Shown: positions 23,378 through 35,943 of the stretch, in pieces
Numbering within the stretch: the stretch's first letter is position 1
How the letters are laid out: each line of letters starts with the position of its first letter
NCBI GenBank assembly: GCA_029882215.1
Contig: JAOULC010000017.1
Location: forward strand, 1-64,000
Direction: 5' to 3'
DNA length: 64,000 nt
Origin: Gammaproteobacteria bacterium
GTDB lineage: Bacteria > Pseudomonadota > Gammaproteobacteria > SZUA-229
Made by a program: the position numbers and the translations under genes
The notes under the pieces: model-generated
Databases searched by the model: none
What the model saw: only the letters and a program-made list of their open reading frames with translations
Told to the model about the DNA's origin: nothing

Positions 23378-24181
23378 TCAGGCCACTTTATCTGCAGGAT
23401 TACGCTGACGTTCATATAAAAATTTAAATACCTCGGCTCGATAGTGGTTATATTCTTCATTATCCGCCAGCTCTACCCGGTTACGCGGCCGTGGTAATTT
23501 AATATCAAGAATTTCGCCTACAGTGGCCGCCGGCCCATTGGTCATCATCACGATACGATCAGAAAGCAAAACCGCCTCATCGACATCATGGGTAATCATT
23601 ATGACTGTGTTATTCAACCGTGCCTGAATCTCTATTAGCGAATCCTGCATATGGGCACGCGTCAACGCATCAAGCGCACCAAATGGTTCATCCATCAGCA
23701 TCACTTCCGGCTCCATTGACAGTGCACGGGCAATGCCTACACGCTGTTTCATACCGCCTGAAATTTCAGAAGGGCGCTTGTGCATTGCATGTTCCATATG
23801 AACCAGCTCAAGATTATGTTCGATCCACTCTTTGATTTGCTGTTTGCTTTTTACGCCGGTAAATATTTGTTTAACGGCCAGCTCTACATTTTCATACGCT
23901 GTTAGCCAGGGAAGCAAAGAATGATTCTGGAATACAACTGCACGGTCAGGCCCCGGTGCATTAACTTCTTTACCATTTAAAACCACACCGCCTTCGCTGG
24001 CCTGATACAAACCAGCCACAACATTTAACACGGTAGACTTGCCACAGCCGGAGTGTCCGATCAGTGATACAAACTCACCCTTTTCCATTCTCAGGTTGAC
24101 ATTTTCCAGCGCTTTATAGGGACCATCCGGTGTCGGGAACTCCATCGACATACCGGTGATGACTAAATGTTCTTTTTTCAT
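23378..24181 (-). CDS. Nitrate-type ABC transporter ATP-binding protein
   Basis: GHSGCGKST, EISGGMKQRVGIARALS, LMDEPFGALD; operon with NrtA/NrtB-like genes. Confidence 0.85.
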   Translation of the reverse strand: MKKEHLVITGMSMEFPTPDGPYKALENVNLRMEKGEFVSLIGHSGCGKSTVLNVVAGLYQASEGGVVLNGKEVNAPGPDRAVVFQNHSLLPWLTAYENVELAVKQIFTGVKSKQQIKEWIEHNLELVHMEHAMHKRPSEISGGMKQRVGIARALSMEPEVMLMDEPFGALDALTRAHMQDSLIEIQARLNNTVIMITHDVDEAVLLSDRIVMMTNGPAATVGEILDIKLPRPRNRVELADNEEYNHYRAEVFKFLYERQRNPADKVA

Positions 24182-24240
24182 TGTCTTTTCCTCTGCCTCA
24201 GTCTATACAGGTGTTTAGCTATCACGATAATTCTTAACAG

Positions 24241-25287
24241 TCATCTAATCTCAGCTGTTTTATCCCAGCTAACTACACGCTGAATCATCAGCATTATTCT
24301 GTCCAGTGCAAAGCCAACCAGACCAATGACAAACACCGCCACCATAATGCGAGCCAGTGAATTTGAACTGCCATTTTGAAATTCATCCCAGACAAATTTC
24401 CCAAGCCCCGGGTTTTGCGCCAGCATTTCCGCTGCTATTAATACCATCCAGCCTATTCCCAGTGAAACACGCAGACCGGCAAACATCATTGGCACCGATG
24501 AAGGTAAAACAATTTTAATAATATGTGTAACCCAGTGCAGACGAAGCACACGGCTGACATTAATCAGGTCTTTATCAATCGACGCCACACCCACTGTCGT
24601 ATTGATAATGGTTGGCCACATGCAGCAGAGCATCACAGTAATGGCAGAGGTCACAAACGACTTGGCAAACATCGGATCATCACTGACATAAAGCGCACTC
24701 ACAATCATGGTTACAATCGGCAGCCATGCAAGTGGCGATACCGGTTTGAAAATTTGTATCAATGGATTAAGCGCACGATACATAGTGGCACTCAGACCAC
24801 AAAGAATGCCCACCGGTATCGCAATTACCGATGCAAATGCAAAACCAATTAACACCGTGTAAATACTTGTAAATACCTGATCAATAAATGTCGGCTTACC
24901 GGTGTACTGTCGTATTTTAGTTTCTGCATCAGGGTTAGCAGCCAGCTTTTTGGCATTACGTTTTTCCTGACGCTGATAAAACGCGGCTTCTTTAACACGC
25001 TCGGCACTGTGCTCATCTATTAAAACCGTAAACTGCTCCCAGACTGCAGCAGGCCCCGGTACCACACCTAAAGAAGTTTCTATTTGCGAAGCGGATGCCG
25101 CCCAAAATCCTAAAAACAAAAGAAACGCCACAACGGGTACTGCTACTGTACTCATAGCCTGACGGATATATTCACTGCGGTTTTTTTTAATATGTCTGAT
25201 AACTGATTTGATCTTTGACCAGAAATTAAAATTGCTTTTACTTTCTTTAAGACTCGTTACCACGCTCTCAACTCGAGTATTCATCAT
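24241..25287 (-). CDS. nrtB: Nitrate-type ABC transporter permease (NrtB-like)
   Basis: BPD permease features (GIGWMVLIAAEMLAQNPGLGKFVWDEFQNGSS). Confidence 0.85.
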   Translation of the reverse strand: MMNTRVESVVTSLKESKSNFNFWSKIKSVIRHIKKNRSEYIRQAMSTVAVPVVAFLLFLGFWAASASQIETSLGVVPGPAAVWEQFTVLIDEHSAERVKEAAFYQRQEKRNAKKLAANPDAETKIRQYTGKPTFIDQVFTSIYTVLIGFAFASVIAIPVGILCGLSATMYRALNPLIQIFKPVSPLAWLPIVTMIVSALYVSDDPMFAKSFVTSAITVMLCCMWPTIINTTVGVASIDKDLINVSRVLRLHWVTHIIKIVLPSSVPMMFAGLRVSLGIGWMVLIAAEMLAQNPGLGKFVWDEFQNGSSNSLARIMVAVFVIGLVGFALDRIMLMIQRVVSWDKTAEIR

Positions 25288-25389
25288 TTTGTACCTATAC
25301 CATTAGCAATCAACTTTTCAGCCTTGTTGCCGGCTGCCTGTAAGTTCCCTGCTTTCAGATCTGATAGCAGGGAATCCCGTCTTACATGT

Positions 25390-26796
25390 TTAAAGCTTGT
25401 CAGAGGCCTTTAAACCAATCTTGAATTTCTCAAGATAAGCGTTTGGTTGTGAACCGTCATAAACAATGTTATCGATAAAATGCTTCTGTGGTTTTTTAAA
25501 GCCTGTTTCTTTTGCAAAATCAGGGAAGTCCTTTTTCAGTACCTTACCTTCAGCAATCAGCTCTTTAGCAGCCAGCGCATAAATATCCGGGCGATAAACT
25601 TTTTTTGCTGTATCTTTAAACCAGCTGTCTGATTTCTTGTCTGCAATCTGCCCCCAGCGACGCATCTGCGTTAAATACCAGATCGCATCTGAGTAGTACG
25701 GATAGGTTGCGTTATGACGATAGAACACGTTGAAGTCAGGTACTGAGCGTTTATCGCCTTTTTCATATTCAAACGTTCCTGTCATTGAGTTGGCAATCAC
25801 ATCGTAATCTGCACCCACGTACTGAGACTTGGCTAATATCTTCACCGCTTCCGGGCGATTTTTATTGTTATCAGCATCCAGCCATTCTGCTGCACGAATC
25901 AATGCCTTAACCACTTTGATATGTGTGTTCGGATTTTTCTTTGCCCAGTCAGCGCTCACACCAAATACTTTTTCAGGGTTATCTTTCCAGATTTCATAAT
26001 CGGTTACTACAGGAACACCAATGCCTTTAAAGACAGCCTGCTGATTCCACGGCTCACCAACACAGTATCCATCAATTGTTCCGGCTTCCATGGTCGATGG
26101 CATTTGTGGTGGCGGCGTTACCGATAAAAATGTATCTGCTTTAATCTTGCCGCTGGTGTCACCTTTATGCGGTGCGTAAAAACCCGGGTGAATTCCGCCA
26201 GCTGCTAACCAGTAGCGTAACTCGTAGTTATGCGTCGACACCGGGAAAACCATACCCATGTTAAAAGGCTTGCCTGCATCTTTGTATTGCTCAATCACCG
26301 GTTTTAGTGAGTCGGCTTTAATCGGGTGAACCGGTTTGCCGTTTTCATGCGGGATGTGTTTTTTCATTTCAGCCCAGACTTTATTTGAAACCGTAATCGC
26401 ATTACCGTTCAAATCCATACTGAAAGCGGTTATGATATCCGCCTGTGTTCCGAATCCAATTGTTGCGCCTAAAGGCTGTCCTGCCAACATATGTGCACCA
26501 TCTAGCTCACCGTCGATAACTCTATCCAGCAATACTTTCCAGTTAGCCTGCGGTTCCAGAGTGACGTATAAACCTTCATCCTCAAAAAAGCCTTTTTCAT
26601 AAGCTACAGCTAAAGGTGCCATATCGGTTAATTTAATAAATCCAAATTTTAATTCTTCTTTTTCTGCTTCACCTGTTACTGCCAGTGCGTTTGTTGATAC
26701 TGTGCCGAGCCCCAATGACATTGCCGTTGCTAATAAGGTGTTCCTTAGAACACGTTTTCCCAGGTTAAGATTAAATCGGAGTTTATAAGTTTTCAT
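25390..26796 (-). CDS. nrtA: Nitrate-type ABC transporter substrate-binding protein (NrtA/CmpA family)
   Basis: [62 protein letters not shown] with signal peptide. Confidence 0.9.
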
Positions 26797-26841
26797 TATC
26801 GCCTCTCTATTGCCGTTTCAAAACTTCAGTTTGTCGGCCCC

Positions 26842-26922
26842 AAAAGGTGCCCATACGCGAGGCAAACAATCCCTGTGTATGGACGCCTTCGTCCGTTAAT
26901 TCAGGCTTCCCGCCACTGGGAA
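26842..26922 (-). promoter_or_regulatory. nrtA leader: ANTAR-target two-hairpin antiterminator overlapping a terminator stem
   Basis: Minus strand: TTCCC-AGTGGC-GGGAA (26907-26922), GGAC-GAAGGC-GTCC (26881-26894); GGCGTCCATAC (26877-26887) can instead pair with GTATGGGCACC (26846-26856), followed by TTTT. Confidence 0.7.
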
Positions 26923-26955
26923 ACTATCAATTCTTTATATTGTTATTTCTATTCG

Positions 26956-26971
26956 TGCAATGGCTATGCCA
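26956..26971 (-). promoter_or_regulatory. Sigma54 (-24/-12) promoter upstream of the nrtA leader
   Basis: Minus strand TGGCATAGCCATTGCA, matching TGGCAN6TTGCA with exact spacing; about 34 nt upstream of the first leader hairpin. Confidence 0.65.
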
Positions 26972-27141
26972 ATAATTAAACCAATATTATTGCTCACAGA
27001 ATCAATTACTTAAGATTATTTAATATACATGAGAGGGTTAAGGGAGATATTTTTCGTGCATCATCACAGAGCATTTGTATTTATTTTAGTGCTGCAATTG
27101 AGGGCATTTACTGACTTTAACCACAGAATATAATATAAGAA

Positions 27142-27756
27142 CTAACAATTACTTTGTAACGAGCCAAATATTTCTGAAAGCTCGATGACATTGACAGCGA
27201 CATCAATCAGTTTTTTATTCTGTTCCATTGCCACTTTGCGAATCGATTGATAGGCCTGGTCTTCGCTGATGTTTCGCTGCTGCATTAAAATGCCTTTAGC
27301 GCGCTCTATGACTTTACGTTCATTCAGGCATTTTTTCGTTTCTCTCAGTTCGTGGCGTAGTGACAAAGCATCCAAAAAGCGTTCTATCGATAATTCAATA
27401 ATCGGTCTGATTTTTCTGCTGCTAATGCCATCGATGATAAAAGCCCCTACACCGGCTTTCACAGCTCTTTTTATTATTTTTGTTTCGGCGACTTCTGTGA
27501 AAAATACGACGGGTTTAGGGCATTCCTCGTTCACTTTAGTCAGGCGGTCAAAGATCAGATCATCTGGTGACCCCATAGCTATCACCAGCACATCGGGACG
27601 ATACTGCTGAATACTAGAAATAAGATCATCATATGAGACACTACAGATGACTTCAAAACCCTCATTATATAAAGATTCGACCAGCATCCCGTTGCTTACT
27701 GTGAGCTTTTCAATTAGCATAACTCTTAACTTATCCGGCACTATTTTGATCACCAC
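27142..27756 (-). CDS. nasT: ANTAR-domain response regulator NasT
   Basis: Receiver-like N-terminus and ANTAR C-terminus (ECLNERKVIERAKGILMQQRNISEDQAYQSIRKVAMEQNKKLIDVA). Confidence 0.9.
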   Translation of the reverse strand: MVIKIVPDKLRVMLIEKLTVSNGMLVESLYNEGFEVICSVSYDDLISSIQQYRPDVLVIAMGSPDDLIFDRLTKVNEECPKPVVFFTEVAETKIIKRAVKAGVGAFIIDGISSRKIRPIIELSIERFLDALSLRHELRETKKCLNERKVIERAKGILMQQRNISEDQAYQSIRKVAMEQNKKLIDVAVNVIELSEIFGSLQSNC

Positions 27757-28174: not shown

Positions 28175-28449
28175 ACAGTTGGATAAAGGCAGCTCTGCTC
28201 GAAAGTCAGATACGCAAAACTACCAGTCTAAAAGCCATATTGGCTCATGATCGTGGGGTTACCGGACAGTCAGTATTACTGTAGTCAGATTCATGGCTCC
28301 AGTCCTTTTGTCTTCAGTGTTAGTTATAACACCTGCCTTCCTCCTATTAATTGCTTATAGAAGCGTGTACCACCTCGCCCGGCAACCCTTCGATGCCATC
28401 GATAAGCTACTTGAAATTTGGTTTACCTAGCATTAAGGCAGAAATTGTA

Positions 28450-29076
28450 ATGTCGGCTCAAATCTACGATCCAAATCTATCAGCTGATGATACTTTCTCA
28501 GCCGAGAATTATTTCATACACATCATTAAACGAGCGGTAAAAAACGCCCAGAATATACATGTTAATTTACCCGGGCAGGGACATATCAATATATTAGCCA
28601 GCGCAGGTGAATATTTTAATTATACCGATGATATAGAATTATTTTGTAAAGCAGATATCTCCGATTTCAAAGTCACCGTACTGAATAAAAATGACAGTAC
28701 AGCCGGTGATGATATTGGCCGTAATATTGACGAATTAATGTGGATAGCAGGCTTTCATGCATCTGACGGCCGGCTGATGGAAGGCTGTTTTCGCGATGAT
28801 GTTGTAGAGCTAATGCACTGGCCAAACTTAACCAGATTACCGAGCACGCCAAACACTATGCGTATTGCTTCACTGTTATCGCACCATCCTACATCGATTA
28901 CATTAGCCCAGCGATTTTTAAAAGTTGATAAAACCGAAGCTTACCAGTTTTATAGTGCTGCCCGCTGTGCCGGTCTGGCACGTGCTGTTAACCGCACTCC
29001 GCAGGAACCCTCTCTAAAGCCTCATCGAAATCAGGCTTTATTAAGCCTGTTGTTAAATAAAATTTCACGAATATAG
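28450..29076 (+). CDS. Hypothetical protein with C-terminal winged-helix-like segment, first gene of roadblock/GTPase cluster
   Basis: ATG at 28450 (MSAQIYDPNLSADDTF...); C-terminal LPSTPNTMRIASLLSHHPTSITLAQRFLKVDKTEAYQFYSAARCAGLA looks like a wHTH. Confidence 0.65.
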   Translation: MSAQIYDPNLSADDTFSAENYFIHIIKRAVKNAQNIHVNLPGQGHINILASAGEYFNYTDDIELFCKADISDFKVTVLNKNDSTAGDDIGRNIDELMWIAGFHASDGRLMEGCFRDDVVELMHWPNLTRLPSTPNTMRIASLLSHHPTSITLAQRFLKVDKTEAYQFYSAARCAGLARAVNRTPQEPSLKPHRNQALLSLLLNKISRI

Positions 29077-29090
29077 GCAAAGGATTTCTC

Positions 29091-29624
29091 ATGGAACACA
29101 AGATTATATTTACCGGCCCGGTTGGCGCTGGAAAAACCACAGCGATATCCAGTATAAGTGATATACCGGTAGTTAAAACAGAAGCCAATGCATCGGATGA
29201 GGTAGCACTTCGCAAATCAAATACAACCGTTGCAATGGATTACGGTATTCTGAACCTGGATGAGAATGCAAAAATTCATTTATATGGCACACCGGGACAG
29301 GAACGCTTTAGCTTTATGTGGGACATCCTGACCGTTGGCGGCGTCGGCTTAATTTTAATGCTGGACAATGCACGTGAAGATCCGATCAAAGACATGGAGT
29401 TTTTTCTGGAAGCGTTTAAACCCTTCATTGAAAAAAACGGGGTTGTTATTGGCGTAACACGTACCGATATCAGTCCAAGACCTGGTCTCTATACCTTTCA
29501 TAAAAAATTATATGAATTAAAAATGAACGTCCCAATATTTGAAGTTGATGCGCGCGACAGAGGCGATGTTAAAACATTATTACTGGGTTTGCTGTCTGTA
29601 CTTGATCCCGGACTAAAACGGTAA
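29091..29624 (+). CDS. Small Ras-like GTP-binding protein (MglA/CvnD-like)
   Basis: P-loop GPVGAGKTT, G3 GTPGQERFSFMWDIL, degenerate G4 TRTD. Confidence 0.85.
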   Translation: MEHKIIFTGPVGAGKTTAISSISDIPVVKTEANASDEVALRKSNTTVAMDYGILNLDENAKIHLYGTPGQERFSFMWDILTVGGVGLILMLDNAREDPIKDMEFFLEAFKPFIEKNGVVIGVTRTDISPRPGLYTFHKKLYELKMNVPIFEVDARDRGDVKTLLLGLLSVLDPGLKR

Positions 29625-29626
29625 TT

Positions 29627-30967
29627 GTGAATACTATTATGAAAAGTATTGATACATCGTTATCGACTGTTCTGCGACTTAAAAACTTTGGCGCCTCTTT
29701 CGGTGACAAAATTATTTTAAGCGATGTTAATTTAAATATTTTAGAGCGTGGTGTCTTTGTCCTTTTAGGACCGAGCGGCACCGGAAAATCCACTTTACTG
29801 CGCTCAATAGCCGGATTAAATGAAACAAACCCGTCGTTTCGTACCTGGGGTAATGCCTATTACCTGGGTAAGGAGCTCGGCGATGAAAACCGTCCATTAC
29901 TTGTATCACAAAGTGCAAGACTGATGATGGCCAGTATATTTGATAACGTCGTACACCATCTTTCAGAAAGAGATAATCTGACATTAAAACAACAACGGGA
30001 TCTGGCAGTAAGACTGCTTGAACAGGCCGGACTTAGTGAACTTAATGATGCATTAGATGATAGTGTGATGAGTCTAACACTTGCCCAGCAAAGACATCTG
30101 GCTATATTGAGACTGACAGCAGCCAGTCCGAAGTTATTGTGTCTTGACGAGCCAACAACGGGTATTTCAGACACTGAGGCAGCGGCATTGTTGACATATA
30201 TAAAAAATGAAAGTCAGAGACGGGCAATATTAATTGTACTACACAACCTCGAACAGGCTAAATCATTAAGTGGCCATACTGCATTACTCGCAGGCGGGTA
30301 TATACAGGAAGTTCAGGACACAGATAATTTTATTAATTCACCAAAATCGGAACACGCTAAACAATGGGTTAAGCTAGGTTCATGTAATGTACCGTCCCCC
30401 GATGCACTGGCTGAAAACCTGGCTGATGATGTAACACCGCCGCCACCGTTACCGACGATTGTTCAATATGCACCCAGTGAAAGCTTTGGGCCAAGAGGTT
30501 TTTTATGGCTCAAGCGTGGACTTCTTGCTGGCACACCGCTTCCCGGTGTTTTTCACGATATTGAATATGATATGCAGATGCTTAAGAAAGTTGGTGTTAC
30601 CACACTGATTACTTTAATGACAAAGCCTGTCAATCAGACTGTACTGGATAAATTTTCTGTTAAAAGTATCTGGCACTCCATTAAAGATATGGGAGCGCCT
30701 GATAACGAACAGGCCGTTACCATATGCAGGGAAATTGACCTGGCTATTAACAATAAAGAAGTCGTTGCCGTGCATTGCCGCGCAGGCATGGGGCGAACAG
30801 GAACAATCCTGGCCGCCTACTTAATATGGGAAGGAAGCCCTGCGTTACTGGCACTGGATACTGTCAGAAATATTGAACCCCGATGGGTACAGTCAGAAGA
30901 ACAGGTAAACTTTTTAGAATCTTTTGCCAAGTATTTAGCAAAGGATAAACACAAATTACAAAAATAA
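29627..30967 (+). CDS. Fusion: ABC ATPase domain plus dual-specificity/tyrosine phosphatase domain
   Basis: Walker A GPSGTGKST, Walker B LLCLDEPT, H-loop VLHN; C-terminal PTP signature VHCRAGMGRTG. Confidence 0.85.
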   Translation: MNTIMKSIDTSLSTVLRLKNFGASFGDKIILSDVNLNILERGVFVLLGPSGTGKSTLLRSIAGLNETNPSFRTWGNAYYLGKELGDENRPLLVSQSARLMMASIFDNVVHHLSERDNLTLKQQRDLAVRLLEQAGLSELNDALDDSVMSLTLAQQRHLAILRLTAASPKLLCLDEPTTGISDTEAAALLTYIKNESQRRAILIVLHNLEQAKSLSGHTALLAGGYIQEVQDTDNFINSPKSEHAKQWVKLGSCNVPSPDALAENLADDVTPPPPLPTIVQYAPSESFGPRGFLWLKRGLLAGTPLPGVFHDIEYDMQMLKKVGVTTLITLMTKPVNQTVLDKFSVKSIWHSIKDMGAPDNEQAVTICREIDLAINNKEVVAVHCRAGMGRTGTILAAYLIWEGSPALLALDTVRNIEPRWVQSEEQVNFLESFAKYLAKDKHKLQK

Positions 30968-31052: not shown

Positions 31053-31460
31053 ATGTCTAATTCATTAGAAAATCAGTTACAACAAGCAATTACTTCAGTT
31101 CCAGAATGCGTGGCATCTGGTTATGTAGATTTAAGCACCGGCATGCTGCTGGGTGTTAAAACAGTAGATTCACACCCTGCTGAAGTACTGGAATTACTGG
31201 CAGCAGCAACTGCTGATATGTTTCAGGGTTCAAACGTTGTTGCTATCGAAAACATGTTCAAGAAAGCACGTGGCGTTGAAGACGGCAAGCATTACTTTAA
31301 TGAAATGATTGTTAACAGTGACAATCTAATTCACGTATTCATCCGTGGAAAAGTTAACGATGAGCACGTTGTTGCTTTTGTCTGCAGAAAGTCAGCTAAC
31401 TTAGGTATGGCTCTGACTAAAGCACGATCTGCACTGCCAGCTATAGAAGCAGCATTGTAA
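31053..31460 (+). CDS. Roadblock/LC7-like small protein
   Basis: 135 aa; VASGYVDLSTGMLLGVK...VVAFVCRKSANLGMALTKARSALPAI resembles a roadblock fold. Confidence 0.65.
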   Translation: MSNSLENQLQQAITSVPECVASGYVDLSTGMLLGVKTVDSHPAEVLELLAAATADMFQGSNVVAIENMFKKARGVEDGKHYFNEMIVNSDNLIHVFIRGKVNDEHVVAFVCRKSANLGMALTKARSALPAIEAAL

Positions 31461-31469
31461 AATAGTTTT

Positions 31470-31556
31470 ATGCAAGTCTTTTATGATACTCATTTAAGAC
31501 TTGCATATTGATATTATGAAATTCCTCATGCGTAGATATTTCATAATATCAATATG
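31470..31556 (+). promoter_or_regulatory. Two adjacent, mutually overlapping hairpins, the second enclosing a start codon
   Basis: TATGCAAGTCTT/AAGACTTGCATA (31469-31480/31496-31507) and CATATTGATATTATGAAAT/ATTTCATAATATCAATATG (31504-31522/31538-31556). Confidence 0.8.
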
Positions 31557-31976
31557 GCTACAACACTGGAGACTGGTTTGGAATATTTAGACAACAATGA
31601 TGTGAAAAGTAAAGCTCTTCGTCCTATTTTACGTGCATTTAACGGCTCATCAAATGAAATAGAAGCCTCTGCTGTGATTACCAGTGATGGTTTTACACTT
31701 GCATGGGTTCTGGATGCTAATGTTGATCAGGACCGCTATGGTGCAATGTGTGCTTCACTACTCGCCTTATCAAATCGTGCAGCACAGGAAATAGCAAGAG
31801 GAAAATTAAAACAAGTGATGATTGAGGGTGAAAACGGTTCAATGTTACTGGTACAGGCAGGTGATGACACAGTGCTGGCACTGGCAGCCAAATCAACTGC
31901 TAACATGGGCATGATATTTATAGATGCCAGAAAAACTGCACAAAAAATCAAAGAAGCATTAGATGCATTTAACTAG
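31554..31976 (+). CDS. Roadblock/LC7 domain protein
   Basis: IEASAVITSDGFTLAWVLDANVDQDRYGAMCASLLALSNRAAQEI... typical roadblock sequence. Confidence 0.85.
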   Translation: MATTLETGLEYLDNNDVKSKALRPILRAFNGSSNEIEASAVITSDGFTLAWVLDANVDQDRYGAMCASLLALSNRAAQEIARGKLKQVMIEGENGSMLLVQAGDDTVLALAAKSTANMGMIFIDARKTAQKIKEALDAFN

Positions 31977-32169: not shown

Positions 32170-32544
32170 ATGTCTGTACGTAGCGATGTTGATTGCAATA
32201 AAGGCAGGGAGATCGGCTGTCAAACCTATTGTTGCCGGCTATTAATCCGCCTTGAACCGGAAGAAAGAATACCTCAAAAAAACGGTTTACCGTCTCCTAG
32301 TTTTGTCGAAAAAAACGAAAGTGGCTATTGCATACACCTTGATCGGGAAAATAATTTATGTGACATCTGGCATACGAGACCTAAAGTTTGCCGGCAATAC
32401 AGCTGCAATACAGACCCGCTGCTTCAGATAGCGCTGAGAGAACCGGTTACCTCTATGGTCGCACTGGTAAAGAGAGAACAAACACTGTTTATTCCCAAAG
32501 AAAAATTCATACAGATACCGTGCTGCGGTGATGATGAGTTATAA
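32170..32544 (+). CDS. YkgJ family cysteine cluster protein
   Basis: CNKGREIGCQTYCCRLL, CDIWHTRPKVCRQYSC. Confidence 0.8.
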   Translation: MSVRSDVDCNKGREIGCQTYCCRLLIRLEPEERIPQKNGLPSPSFVEKNESGYCIHLDRENNLCDIWHTRPKVCRQYSCNTDPLLQIALREPVTSMVALVKREQTLFIPKEKFIQIPCCGDDEL

Positions 32545-32583: not shown

Positions 32584-34191
32584 TTGCATAATATAAAATT
32601 TAACAACAAAACATATCAGTGCCGTGACAATGAAAACTTACTGGATGCGCTGTTAAGACAGGGTGTAGAGCCATCCTTTTCGTGCCGCAAAGGCAGCTGT
32701 CATGTCTGTATGCTAAAGTGTTCCAGCGGAGATGTTTCTGGCGATGCACAAAAAGACTTGCGACCTGTGTTCGTTGACAATGGTTTTTTTCTGCCCTGCA
32801 TGTGCAAGCCTGGCGGTGATTTAGAAATCCGTGAAATTGATCGTGATGAAATTTATACACCCGCCTACGTACAGAAAAAGGAATACCTGTCAGACAATGT
32901 ATGCAGGTTACTCATCGAATGCAATGGTATTACCGACTACCAGCCAGGCCAGTTCATTAATTTAAGCCGTCCGGCTGATGGTCTGACCCGTAGTTACTCC
33001 CTTGCCAGCTGTCCGGATGAAGATTATTTTCTTGAGTTACATGTACAACGCATGCAAGGCGGTGAACTCAGCAACTGGATATTTAACGAGCTCAATGAAT
33101 TCGACGAAGTCGAAATACAGGGACCTAACGGCCACTGTCATTATCAACAAGGCATGTCATCTGCACCAATTCTAATGGCGGCAAGCAATACAGGACTGGC
33201 TCCAGTAATAGGTATCCTGCGCCAGGCTATCATCAGCAAGCACAGCGGCGACATTTATATCTATCATGAATGCAACACATTAAATGACTTATACCTCAAT
33301 GAGTACATCCAGAATCTTGCTGACAGCCATGAAAATATTCACTATCGTCCTTGCGTACTAGATGAAGACAATGGTTCTGTAGCTGCACAATCAGCTGCAA
33401 AACGCATCAGTTCAGATCATGAAAACTTTAATAACTGGCTTATCTATCTATCCGGCTCAGATCGCATGGTATCTCAGTTACAAACTGATGTACTTACAAA
33501 AGGTGCACAGGATACGCTGATTTTTACCGATGCATTTGATCACAAAGACTTAAGAGTGAATAACCAGGCTCAAAGAAGTACCTATGACAAGTCAGCCATT
33601 AAAGAAAATATTAAACCGCCGCCTCAGTATACCGAGAGCGGTTACCCTGCTCCCGACCCTGAGTTATGGCAGGCGCTGGACAATGGTAAGACACTGAACT
33701 TAATCCTGCATGATTTTTACACTATTGTTTATGCTGATCCTATATTGTCACCATTCTTTTCTAAGATTACTATTCAGAGATCTATTGAAAAATCATACCT
33801 GTTCTTACGTCAGGTAATAACAGGCGAGAAGGTTTATATTGGTGACAGACCCAGAAACGCTCACCACTGGATGGTTATTACTAACGAAATATTTGATTAT
33901 CGCGAAGCTATAATGGCGAAATGTATCAGGGACTACGATATTCCTGAGCAGATAGTTAAACGCCTGATCGATATCAATGAAAGTTTCCGTAAAGATATTG
34001 TTAAAGACACGCCATGGAACAAAATTGTTAACGGTGTTGAAATCCCCGTCGATGGTTTTGAAGAAATCGAGATCGACTGTGGATGCATATGCGATAGTTG
34101 CCAGCAGGCAATAGAGCCCGGCGAAACAGTGCGATATCACACCCGGCTTGGTGAAGTCTATTGTTCAACCTGCATGACCGGTGACAACTAG
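32584..34191 (+). CDS. Fusion: 2Fe-2S ferredoxin, FAD/NAD ferredoxin reductase, truncated haemoglobin, Cys-rich ribbon
   Basis: TTG start; CRKGSCHVC...LPCMC; TRSYSLAS; ILMAASNTGLAPVIGILR; globin-like LILHDFYTIVYADPILSPFF...RNAHHWMVITNEIFDYR; terminal CGCICDSCQ...CSTC. Confidence 0.85.
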   Translation: MHNIKFNNKTYQCRDNENLLDALLRQGVEPSFSCRKGSCHVCMLKCSSGDVSGDAQKDLRPVFVDNGFFLPCMCKPGGDLEIREIDRDEIYTPAYVQKKEYLSDNVCRLLIECNGITDYQPGQFINLSRPADGLTRSYSLASCPDEDYFLELHVQRMQGGELSNWIFNELNEFDEVEIQGPNGHCHYQQGMSSAPILMAASNTGLAPVIGILRQAIISKHSGDIYIYHECNTLNDLYLNEYIQNLADSHENIHYRPCVLDEDNGSVAAQSAAKRISSDHENFNNWLIYLSGSDRMVSQLQTDVLTKGAQDTLIFTDAFDHKDLRVNNQAQRSTYDKSAIKENIKPPPQYTESGYPAPDPELWQALDNGKTLNLILHDFYTIVYADPILSPFFSKITIQRSIEKSYLFLRQVITGEKVYIGDRPRNAHHWMVITNEIFDYREAIMAKCIRDYDIPEQIVKRLIDINESFRKDIVKDTPWNKIVNGVEIPVDGFEEIEIDCGCICDSCQQAIEPGETVRYHTRLGEVYCSTCMTGDN

Positions 34192-34239
34192 TGTCGTTTG
34201 TGTTCACCAGTTGCCAACATCAGCTCAGGACTTTTTAAC

Positions 34240-34857
34240 ATGTCTGCACGGTTTACTTTTACACAATCCGGAATTGATCATTTCATCTCTTCACCTGAGA
34301 AAAATGAAGACCGTGATTTTATTCTGGATTATTTACGTAAAAGTCACTGTATTTCAATGTCTGTATCAGAGCTTGACAACACTATTGATATGGACAAAAA
34401 ACAGATCACAAAAAAAATATACCACATGTTAAAACACGGCTGGATGAGCAGCATCAATGAAAGTGAAAATAAAAGTAGCGACAGCGAAGTATTTGAAAAT
34501 TTCTCATTAGACACCCAGTTAGCAGAGCTCTCCATTTCACATTCAGCTATGCTTGTTGATATGAGCGGACTTATAATAGCATCCAGTGGTTTTTCAACAA
34601 TAGACTGTGATTATCTTGCAGCCAGTGCCACTGCACTGGCACTTATAAATGATATAACACAATCAAGAAACAAAGAATTATGTAACAACACTCCCTGGTC
34701 ACTTAATATGAACTGGGGGGAATTAAAAGTGATGACGCAGTTAGTTTGTATTGGACCATTGAAATTTGTACTCATTACTGGTGATCACTCAGACTTGAAT
34801 GTTCAGGCATTAATTAAACTCATTGCGATGTTAGCCAGGAGATATATCAGTGGATAA
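34240..34857 (+). CDS. Hypothetical protein: N-terminal winged-helix-like plus C-terminal degenerate roadblock-like domain
   Basis: ATG at 34240 (MSARFTFTQSGIDHF...); ITKKIYHMLKHGWMSS; SISHSAMLVDMSGLIIASSGF...DYLAASATALALIND. Confidence 0.6.
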   Translation: MSARFTFTQSGIDHFISSPEKNEDRDFILDYLRKSHCISMSVSELDNTIDMDKKQITKKIYHMLKHGWMSSINESENKSSDSEVFENFSLDTQLAELSISHSAMLVDMSGLIIASSGFSTIDCDYLAASATALALINDITQSRNKELCNNTPWSLNMNWGELKVMTQLVCIGPLKFVLITGDHSDLNVQALIKLIAMLARRYISG

Positions 34858-35272
34858 CGACAAGCCAACAGCCAACCTGCTCATAGAGCCATTAAGTACA
34901 TTATCAACCGGTGGCACAGAAGAGCTTAACAGCATACTTGAAGACTTACACAGTGCCTGTGTCGGTGTTCAGTTATCAATGATTGCGACTACCGATGGAT
35001 TAACAATGGCATCTCTAGGCACTGTTCTGGATCCAGATCAGGTAGGAGCGATGTGCTCAGAGTTACAGACTGTTTGCAACAAAACAGCAACTGAGTTACA
35101 ACAAGGTACACTGCAACAAATGTTATTGAAGTGCTCTGATGGCTATATGCTGGTTACAACAGCTGGTGAGCAGGCCGTTCTGGCTATGATGACAAAGCCA
35201 AATGTTAATCTTGGCTTTGTTATTATCGAATCACAGCGGGCTGCCGATGCAATAAGACAATCACTGGGATAA
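34850..35272 (+). CDS. Roadblock/LC7 domain protein
   Basis: VGVQLSMIATTDGLTMASLGTVLDPDQVGAMCSELQTVCNKTATEL; paralogous to 31554..31976. Confidence 0.85.
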   Translation: MDNDKPTANLLIEPLSTLSTGGTEELNSILEDLHSACVGVQLSMIATTDGLTMASLGTVLDPDQVGAMCSELQTVCNKTATELQQGTLQQMLLKCSDGYMLVTTAGEQAVLAMMTKPNVNLGFVIIESQRAADAIRQSLG

Positions 35273-35301: not shown

Positions 35302-35943
35302 TCACTCATAATCAAACTCAGCCTGATAATCATCCGGGTTAATCCCTTCCGCTTTGAGAGGTGCAACCAGGCGGATTCTGGTCACTTTAGCCGATGATGT
35401 AATATAGCCTTTTATCACATGCTCACGTGTAACCGGAGAGTCATCTTCTTTAGCCAGCTGCTCAACCACCCGGGTTACTTTGCGACGTGCAAGCATGCGA
35501 AAAAAAGCCGGCACATGCGACAACAACTTTACGACCAGTTCTTCAGCTTCCGGTAACCAGTCACCTGTTTTAGGTAAATCCGGTACAAAGCTCCACTCAT
35601 CTTCAGTTAAGTCACGCCAGATTATAATAGAATTACCGTCTGCATCAGACACACAGGCAATTTTTTCCAGATCGGGTGTATCCATTGGTTCATAGCGTGA
35701 AATGGCTTTGGCATTAATCAGATGAGCATAAGCCTTAGAGACACTGGGGACACTGAGTCTGACTGTCGCAGTGTGTTCGATATAAGGCACCTCAATAAGC
35801 CTCAGATACACATTACCGGAATTCAGCTCCACAAAACCATCGCCATTTTTTGAAACAACAAAGCCTATTGTATCCGACCATAAATGCAGTGCCGACTTTA
35901 GATCTTTAACTTGTAAATCAAAATGACTGATACCATGAAACAT
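35302..35943 (-). CDS. VOC (glyoxalase-like) domain fused to PCP_red-like C-terminal domain
   Basis: N-terminal MFHGISHFDLQVKDLKSALHLWSDTIGFVV; C-terminal WLPEAEELVVKLLSHVPAFFRMLARRKVTRVVEQLAKEDDSPVTREHV. Confidence 0.75.
   Translation of the reverse strand: MFHGISHFDLQVKDLKSALHLWSDTIGFVVSKNGDGFVELNSGNVYLRLIEVPYIEHTATVRLSVPSVSKAYAHLINAKAISRYEPMDTPDLEKIACVSDADGNSIIIWRDLTEDEWSFVPDLPKTGDWLPEAEELVVKLLSHVPAFFRMLARRKVTRVVEQLAKEDDSPVTREHVIKGYITSSAKVTRIRLVAPLKAEGINPDDYQAEFDYE

Follow-up and report, generated by a model that had tools for sequence, protein, structure and literature searches.

Bacterial fusions of a reductase with a globin are known mainly as flavohaemoglobins (Hmp), single chains in which an N-terminal 3/3 globin is joined to an FNR-type FAD/NAD reductase, with no ferredoxin and no ribbon. 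In the eukaryote Heterosigma akashiwo, the nitrate reductase-trHbN fusion NR2-2/2HbN, reported as an NO-metabolising enzyme, carries within a larger chain an FNR-type reductase to which a truncated haemoglobin is covalently attached, and a review proposes FNR-like proteins as donors to truncated haemoglobins (PMC3820574). The glbN-ferredoxin reductase operon of Legionella is a target of NsrR and has been proposed to serve NO oxidation (PMC1274295). In HGbRL of Methylacidiphilum, the roadblock domain itself carries a fused globin of sensor type, a precedent for tying a globin to a roadblock/MglB-type partner (PMC4476040). Among MglA GTPases, Groups 2 and 3 have a lysine-less G4 motif and a DAR G5 motif, and the beta/gamma-proteobacterial Group 3 systems comprise a receiver/winged-helix-like protein, MglA and one or two MglB proteins (Wuichet and Sogaard-Andersen, PMC4316618).

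Here we describe a protein, encoded in a 64,000-nucleotide stretch of gammaproteobacterial DNA (hereafter the window), that differs from all of these. Relative to Hmp, its globin is C-terminal and of 2/2 group-I type, and the chain also includes a [2Fe-2S] domain and a ribbon; the reversed domain order and the globin class rule out membership of the flavohaemoglobins. NR2-2/2HbN, by contrast, is based on nitrate reductase and lacks a plant-type ferredoxin, the ribbon and the GTPase set. The Legionella operon, like two loci of our genome scan (L006 and L007) whose reductases fall in the same clade as the fused one, likewise partners a truncated haemoglobin with a ferredoxin reductase, but as two separate proteins, with a truncated globin of another clade and no GTPase set. 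HGbRL is without reductase, ferredoxin and ribbon. Group 3 MglA systems resemble the window in their lysine-less G4/DAR G5 MglA and one or two roadblock proteins, and may also do so in having a conserved first gene; the ABC ATPase-phosphatase fusion and the globin protein described below go unmentioned in PMC4316618, whose main text has zero occurrences of globin, ferredoxin or phosphatase. No earlier description of the fusion, or of a globin-MglA operon, was found in the open-licence literature.

Domain make-up of the fused protein

The gene opens with a TTG codon at 32584. No good Shine-Dalgarno sequence is obvious there, and the start is supported by the ATG of homologues, which aligns at this position. 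Its parts are as follows.

32584-34191, plus strand: four-part protein of Fer2, FNR, truncated haemoglobin and Cys ribbon, 535 amino acids (intact open reading frame)
32584-32859, plus strand: [2Fe-2S] ferredoxin domain, residues 1-92 (Pfam, invariant ligands)
32860-33153, plus strand: FAD-binding domain, residues 93-190, with RSYS motif (Pfam, fold match, alignment)
33154-33549, plus strand: NAD(H)-binding domain, residues 191-322 (Pfam, fold match, alignment)
33556-33630, plus strand: flexible linker, residues 325-349 (pLDDT under 50)
33631-34017, plus strand: group-I truncated haemoglobin domain, residues 350-478 (Pfam, predicted fold, alignment)
34081-34176, plus strand: C-terminal Cys4 ribbon, C503, C506, C527 and C530 (alignment, model)

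Four Pfam families exceed their curated cut-offs: Fer2 (residues 8-76, 1.5e-12), FAD_binding_6 (95-187, 4.6e-12), NAD_binding_1 (201-298, 1.7e-7) and Bac_globin (368-472, 2.5e-8). A full-length AlphaFold2 model from a 52-sequence alignment has a pLDDT of 88, with one floppy linker at 325-349. The first-pass annotation, made from the sequence alone, had read the gene as a redox protein of ferredoxin, FAD/NAD reductase, truncated haemoglobin and Cys ribbon; Pfam, the fold model and the homologues agree with it. The order Fer2, reductase, globin, ribbon is repeated in over 50 homologues (identity about 31-52%), and the fusion is therefore not a chance one. An artefact, in which a reductase gene has run into an unrelated globin-like segment, could be argued from the modest score of the globin part as a single sequence (phmmer against PDB, 1e-5, to Mycobacterium HbN and other group-I truncated haemoglobins). 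Set against this are the shared architecture, the invariant ligands and the confident globin fold; conservation across homologues excludes a chance or mis-called fusion for practical purposes, and we give chance adjacency next to no weight.

In the first half, Fer2, FAD_binding_6 and NAD_binding_1 follow one another in the order of a three-domain reductase, with cluster and FAD ligands present, and the model matches GcoB, T4moF and the carbazole and benzoate dioxygenase reductases. GcoB, BenC and T4moF have the same Fer2-FAD-NAD order and fold but supply separate oxygenases, whereas the fused protein continues into globin and ribbon. Residue conservation was scored over 52 full-length homologues. 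The ferredoxin ligands C34, C39, C42 and C72 are invariant (52/52), as are R136, Y138, G204 and G291; both the ferredoxin Cys motif and the flavin motif (R136-S-Y138-S) lie where they had originally been placed.

Modelled separately, the globin-ribbon half reaches a pLDDT of 92. The best solved match in Foldseek is 1dlw (TM 0.90), the top matches are group-I truncated haemoglobins (rmsd 1.6-1.7) and the TM to HbN 1idr is 0.83. The globin is thus predicted to be of truncated group-I (HbN) type with a 2/2 fold. A fold model had been suggested at the outset as the check for a globin fold, and this one returns it; together with the Pfam order, it upholds the placing of a truncated globin after the reductase. 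TyrB10 (Y379) and the proximal HisF8 (H427) are invariant in all 56 globin-ribbon rows, the latter being the first His of the AHH segment in which a candidate proximal His had been pointed out. The PxNAHHWMVI stretch around it is invariant in the 52 homologues at every position except the second. Like Mycobacterium tuberculosis HbN, the family has the truncated fold, TyrB10, the proximal His and usually GlnE11; HbN, however, is single-domain, and the family adds PxNAHHWMVI, the fused ribbon and, in most cases, the reductase.

In the ribbon, C503, C506 and C527 are invariant and C530 nearly so (52 homologues). The initial reading of this region as CxCxxC/CxxC holds for the pairs C503-x2-C506 and C527-x2-C530 and fails for the extra cysteines, which are not conserved (C501 is present in 2/52). 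No Pfam family matches the ribbon confidently, the best being VATC (E 0.08).

The window copy has peculiarities of its own. E11 is Gln in 49/56 globin-ribbon rows and Ser404 in the window copy, which lacks the distal Gln of HbN at this position. E11 is variable among truncated haemoglobins, and GlnE11 is therefore not treated as defining trHbN. The NAD glycine motif reads SNTG, against TGTG in the family, with N202 in place of a Gly found in the other 51 homologues. Given SerE11 and N202, the window copy may differ from the family in ligand affinity or NADH binding.

Reductase origin and family architectures

The closest stand-alone relatives of the Fer2-FNR half are those of L006 and L007, each directly adjoining a trHbN gene; in L007, an NsrR-like gene comes next, scoring 151.5 bits against a curated threshold of 182. 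With 15 ordinary reductases as the root, a tree groups both with the fused reductases (support 100/100) and apart from the ordinary ones. Their arrangement matches the Legionella glbN-ferredoxin reductase operon under NsrR (PMC1274295) and accords with the proposal that truncated haemoglobins draw on FNR-like donors (PMC3820574). These relatives lend support to a reading of the fused protein as mainly an NO dioxygenase, that is, a flavohaemoglobin analogue made from a ferredoxin reductase and a truncated haemoglobin, which would detoxify NO while the GTPase module shares its regulation only. Such an enzyme requires just this kind of reductase chain and the distal Tyr/Gln pair that is usual in the family; TyrB10 never varies, and most members share GlnE11 with HbN. 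Several observations speak against it. In the globin tree, the family globin falls in another clade than the trHbN of the L006/L007 operons; the window copy has Ser at E11; and its genome has no NirS match and no NirK above cut-off. By eye, no nitrogen-oxide genes occur among neighbour clusters common to at least four loci, and a denitrification link was rejected on these grounds. Nitrate-type ABC transporter genes and an ANTAR regulator lie upstream in the window (23378-27756, minus strand) and are not conserved neighbours. The same genome also encodes a second truncated globin and a PF00042-type globin (G000:C23:50975-51265 and G000:C142:141-446), the latter near a contig end.

The family itself bears on the purpose of the reductase. 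A genome scan recovered 80 loci, and the family occurs in Gamma-, Beta- and Alphaproteobacteria and in Myxococcota; among the genomes are many MAGs, and mis-binning may have made some taxon labels wrong. About 54 of the 80 have the full Fer2-FNR-globin-ribbon architecture. Fer2-globin-ribbon occurs at six loci (five Marinobacter, one other), Fer2 followed by a degenerate FAD remnant and globin-ribbon at five, and globin-ribbon alone at 11; the remainder are partial. In the remnant type, the NAD domain has no match, the RxYS FAD motif is lost and the FAD domain is matched weakly in 4/5. The globin tree, with weak support for many inner branches, sets the Marinobacter type next to the clade of the window, splits the remnant type between two positions and gathers the stand-alone type into a single group. 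From these architectures and tree positions, loss or decay of the reductase most likely happened on more than one occasion, with globin and ribbon kept together. The constant element of the family, as far as sequences indicate, is globin plus ribbon, the reductase being missing or decayed in some lineages. Because the two are kept together in nearly every sampled homologue and the reductase is optional, the ribbon would belong with the globin. Dispensing with the reductase while keeping globin-ribbon and the GTPase set, as several lineages do, is a further point against the NO dioxygenase, as is the steady partnership with a signalling set rather than with NO-metabolism genes. As the main role, we consider NO detoxification less likely than not, yet a strong competitor of the reading proposed below.

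The GTPase module and its recurrence

The fused gene is seventh in an operon-like run with gaps of -8 to 193 bases. Its companions, in order, are the following.

28351-29076, plus strand: conserved first gene of the module, short form, function-unassigned protein (homologues; no Pfam match)
29091-29624, plus strand: small GTPase of MglA type, with GPVGAGKT, GTPGQERF, VTRTD and VDAR (Pfam, motifs)
29627-30967, plus strand: ABC ATPase fused to a DSP/PTP phosphatase (ABC-PTP), HCRAGMGRTG intact (Pfam, homologues)
31053-31460, plus strand: highly conserved roadblock-like protein (no Pfam match; profile alignment)
31554-31976, plus strand: Roadblock/LC7 (MglB-type) protein (Pfam Robl_LC7)
32170-32544, plus strand: CxxCxxCC putative metal-binding protein (homologues in 15/80 loci, mostly just upstream)
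34198-34857, plus strand: downstream protein with no significant family match and weak HTH-type matches (Pfam)
34850-35272, plus strand: third roadblock/LC7 protein (Pfam Robl_LC7)

The GTPase has a G4 motif without Lys (VTRTD) and VDAR at G5, and so fits the motifs of Group 3 MglA, which Group 2 shares. Group 3 systems are expected to have one or two MglB/roadblock proteins beside MglA; here the 31554 and 34850 proteins match Robl_LC7, and the 31053 protein can be aligned to the roadblock family along 50 C-terminal columns (probability 86%). Mean column identity of the 31053 protein across phyla is about 71%, exceeding the conservation of the globin protein. Where Group 3 systems begin with a receiver/winged-helix-like protein, the window has a conserved first gene in a short form; longer forms of it occur at L106 and L107. 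The ABC ATPase is PstB-like, and the counterpart of the fusion is two separate genes in Rhodobacteraceae (L052, L060, L063, L064).

Across the 80 loci, a 31053-type gene lies near the family gene in 50, the ABC-PTP fusion in 44, the GTPase in 37, a 31554-type gene in 27 and the first gene in 25. Homology was scored by phmmer to the window proteins, leaving uncounted distant replacements such as the dynamin-like GTPases that, in Rhodobacteraceae and their relatives, stand between an ABC-type piece and the globin gene (L051:6180-7379, L052:4654-6747). Several loci with globin-ribbon alone have these module neighbours too. The fused or globin-ribbon gene is apart from the core in about a third of loci; in 24 of the 28 tested that lack a local copy, the 31053-type gene is elsewhere in the genome (kinship ignored). 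Within a sample of 275 genomes of the class, a strong 31053-type match is present in 3/3 genomes with globin-ribbon and in 2/272 without (kinship ignored); the 28-genome set takes in other classes than this control. The proposed link of the fused gene to a GTPase module therefore extends far beyond the single window, the set recurring across loci and genomes. Two sampled genomes have the ABC-PTP/31053 pair without any globin-ribbon, and on this basis the minimal core would be the ABC-PTP fusion plus the 31053-type protein, with the globin as an accessory input.

Other neighbours were observed in passing. A glyoxalase plus DUF2621 protein is encoded at 35302-35943 of the window; in Myxococcota and Acidobacteriota (L091, L093, L094) its homologues adjoin the globin-ribbon gene, and in L072 they lie near it. 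A CDGSH iron-sulphur protein overlaps the end of the globin-ribbon gene in L098 (8441-8776). L105 (5938-11050) has a sister-like set of GTPase, two roadblock-type genes and a calcineurin-type phosphatase, adjoining a protein with tandem 3/3 and truncated globins. Anti-phage defence was considered and rejected: PADLOC has no match for the globin protein, and for the other proteins only partial ATPase and dynamin-type matches.

Proposed role and implications

We propose, at chances that we put at about even, that the protein serves a Group 3-like MglA system as a self-reducing haem sensor subunit. Electrons would pass from NAD(P)H through FAD and [2Fe-2S] to the haem of the truncated globin, keeping it ferrous and able to bind O2 or NO. 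The ligand or redox state of globin-ribbon would then be relayed to the set of roadblock, ABC-PTP and MglA-type GTPase proteins, probably by binding of these proteins to the conserved PxNAHHWMVI face or to the ribbon. The sensor arm is based on domain content, cofactor-ligand residues, the predicted globin fold, gene linkage and genome co-occurrence, from which we infer haem and cofactor binding, the electron route, the ligand, the contact with the GTPase set and the direction of signalling. Two constants favour it: the haem domain, as opposed to the electron chain, and the signalling set that keeps the haem domain company. The sensor and NO dioxygenase roles are compatible, since consuming NO and O2 can let an enzyme reset itself as a sensor: dioxygenase turnover, in which O2-haem reacts with NO to give nitrate and is re-reduced, may run alongside and reset it.

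Alternatively, the ferredoxin-reductase could report the NADH pool, the globin serving as an electron sink, such that metabolic redox state rather than gas is sensed. The complete NADH-FAD-[2Fe-2S]-haem chain predicted from sequence and the retention of ferredoxin where the reductase is lost are consistent with this idea. The globin-ribbon-alone lineages, however, keep the same neighbours, which makes the haem domain, rather than the NADH chain, the input that stays constant, and we find a redox sensor of this kind improbable.

Returning to the haem sensor, the wider reading is of an undescribed, widespread signalling system: a self-reducing truncated haemoglobin would supply the O2/NO input to a Ras-like (MglA) GTPase switch that acts via roadblock proteins and the ABC-ATPase/tyrosine-phosphatase fusion. 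We advance it tentatively, at somewhat under even chances. The fused protein is a second, independent build of the reductase-globin fusion, in which both the reductase and the globin class differ from those of flavohaemoglobins. The natural series in its family, of full chain, dead-reductase chain, ferredoxin-globin and bare globin-ribbon, amounts to a ready-made experiment on the purpose of the reductase. The open-licence literature examined identifies no trigger of Group 3-like MglA systems; the regular gene company of the globin suggests an input for them and makes the question of their trigger directly testable. That the gene travels with an uncharacterised small-GTPase signalling set across several phyla suggests, finally, that the chemistry of oxygen or nitric oxide is linked directly to a Ras-like switch in bacteria.
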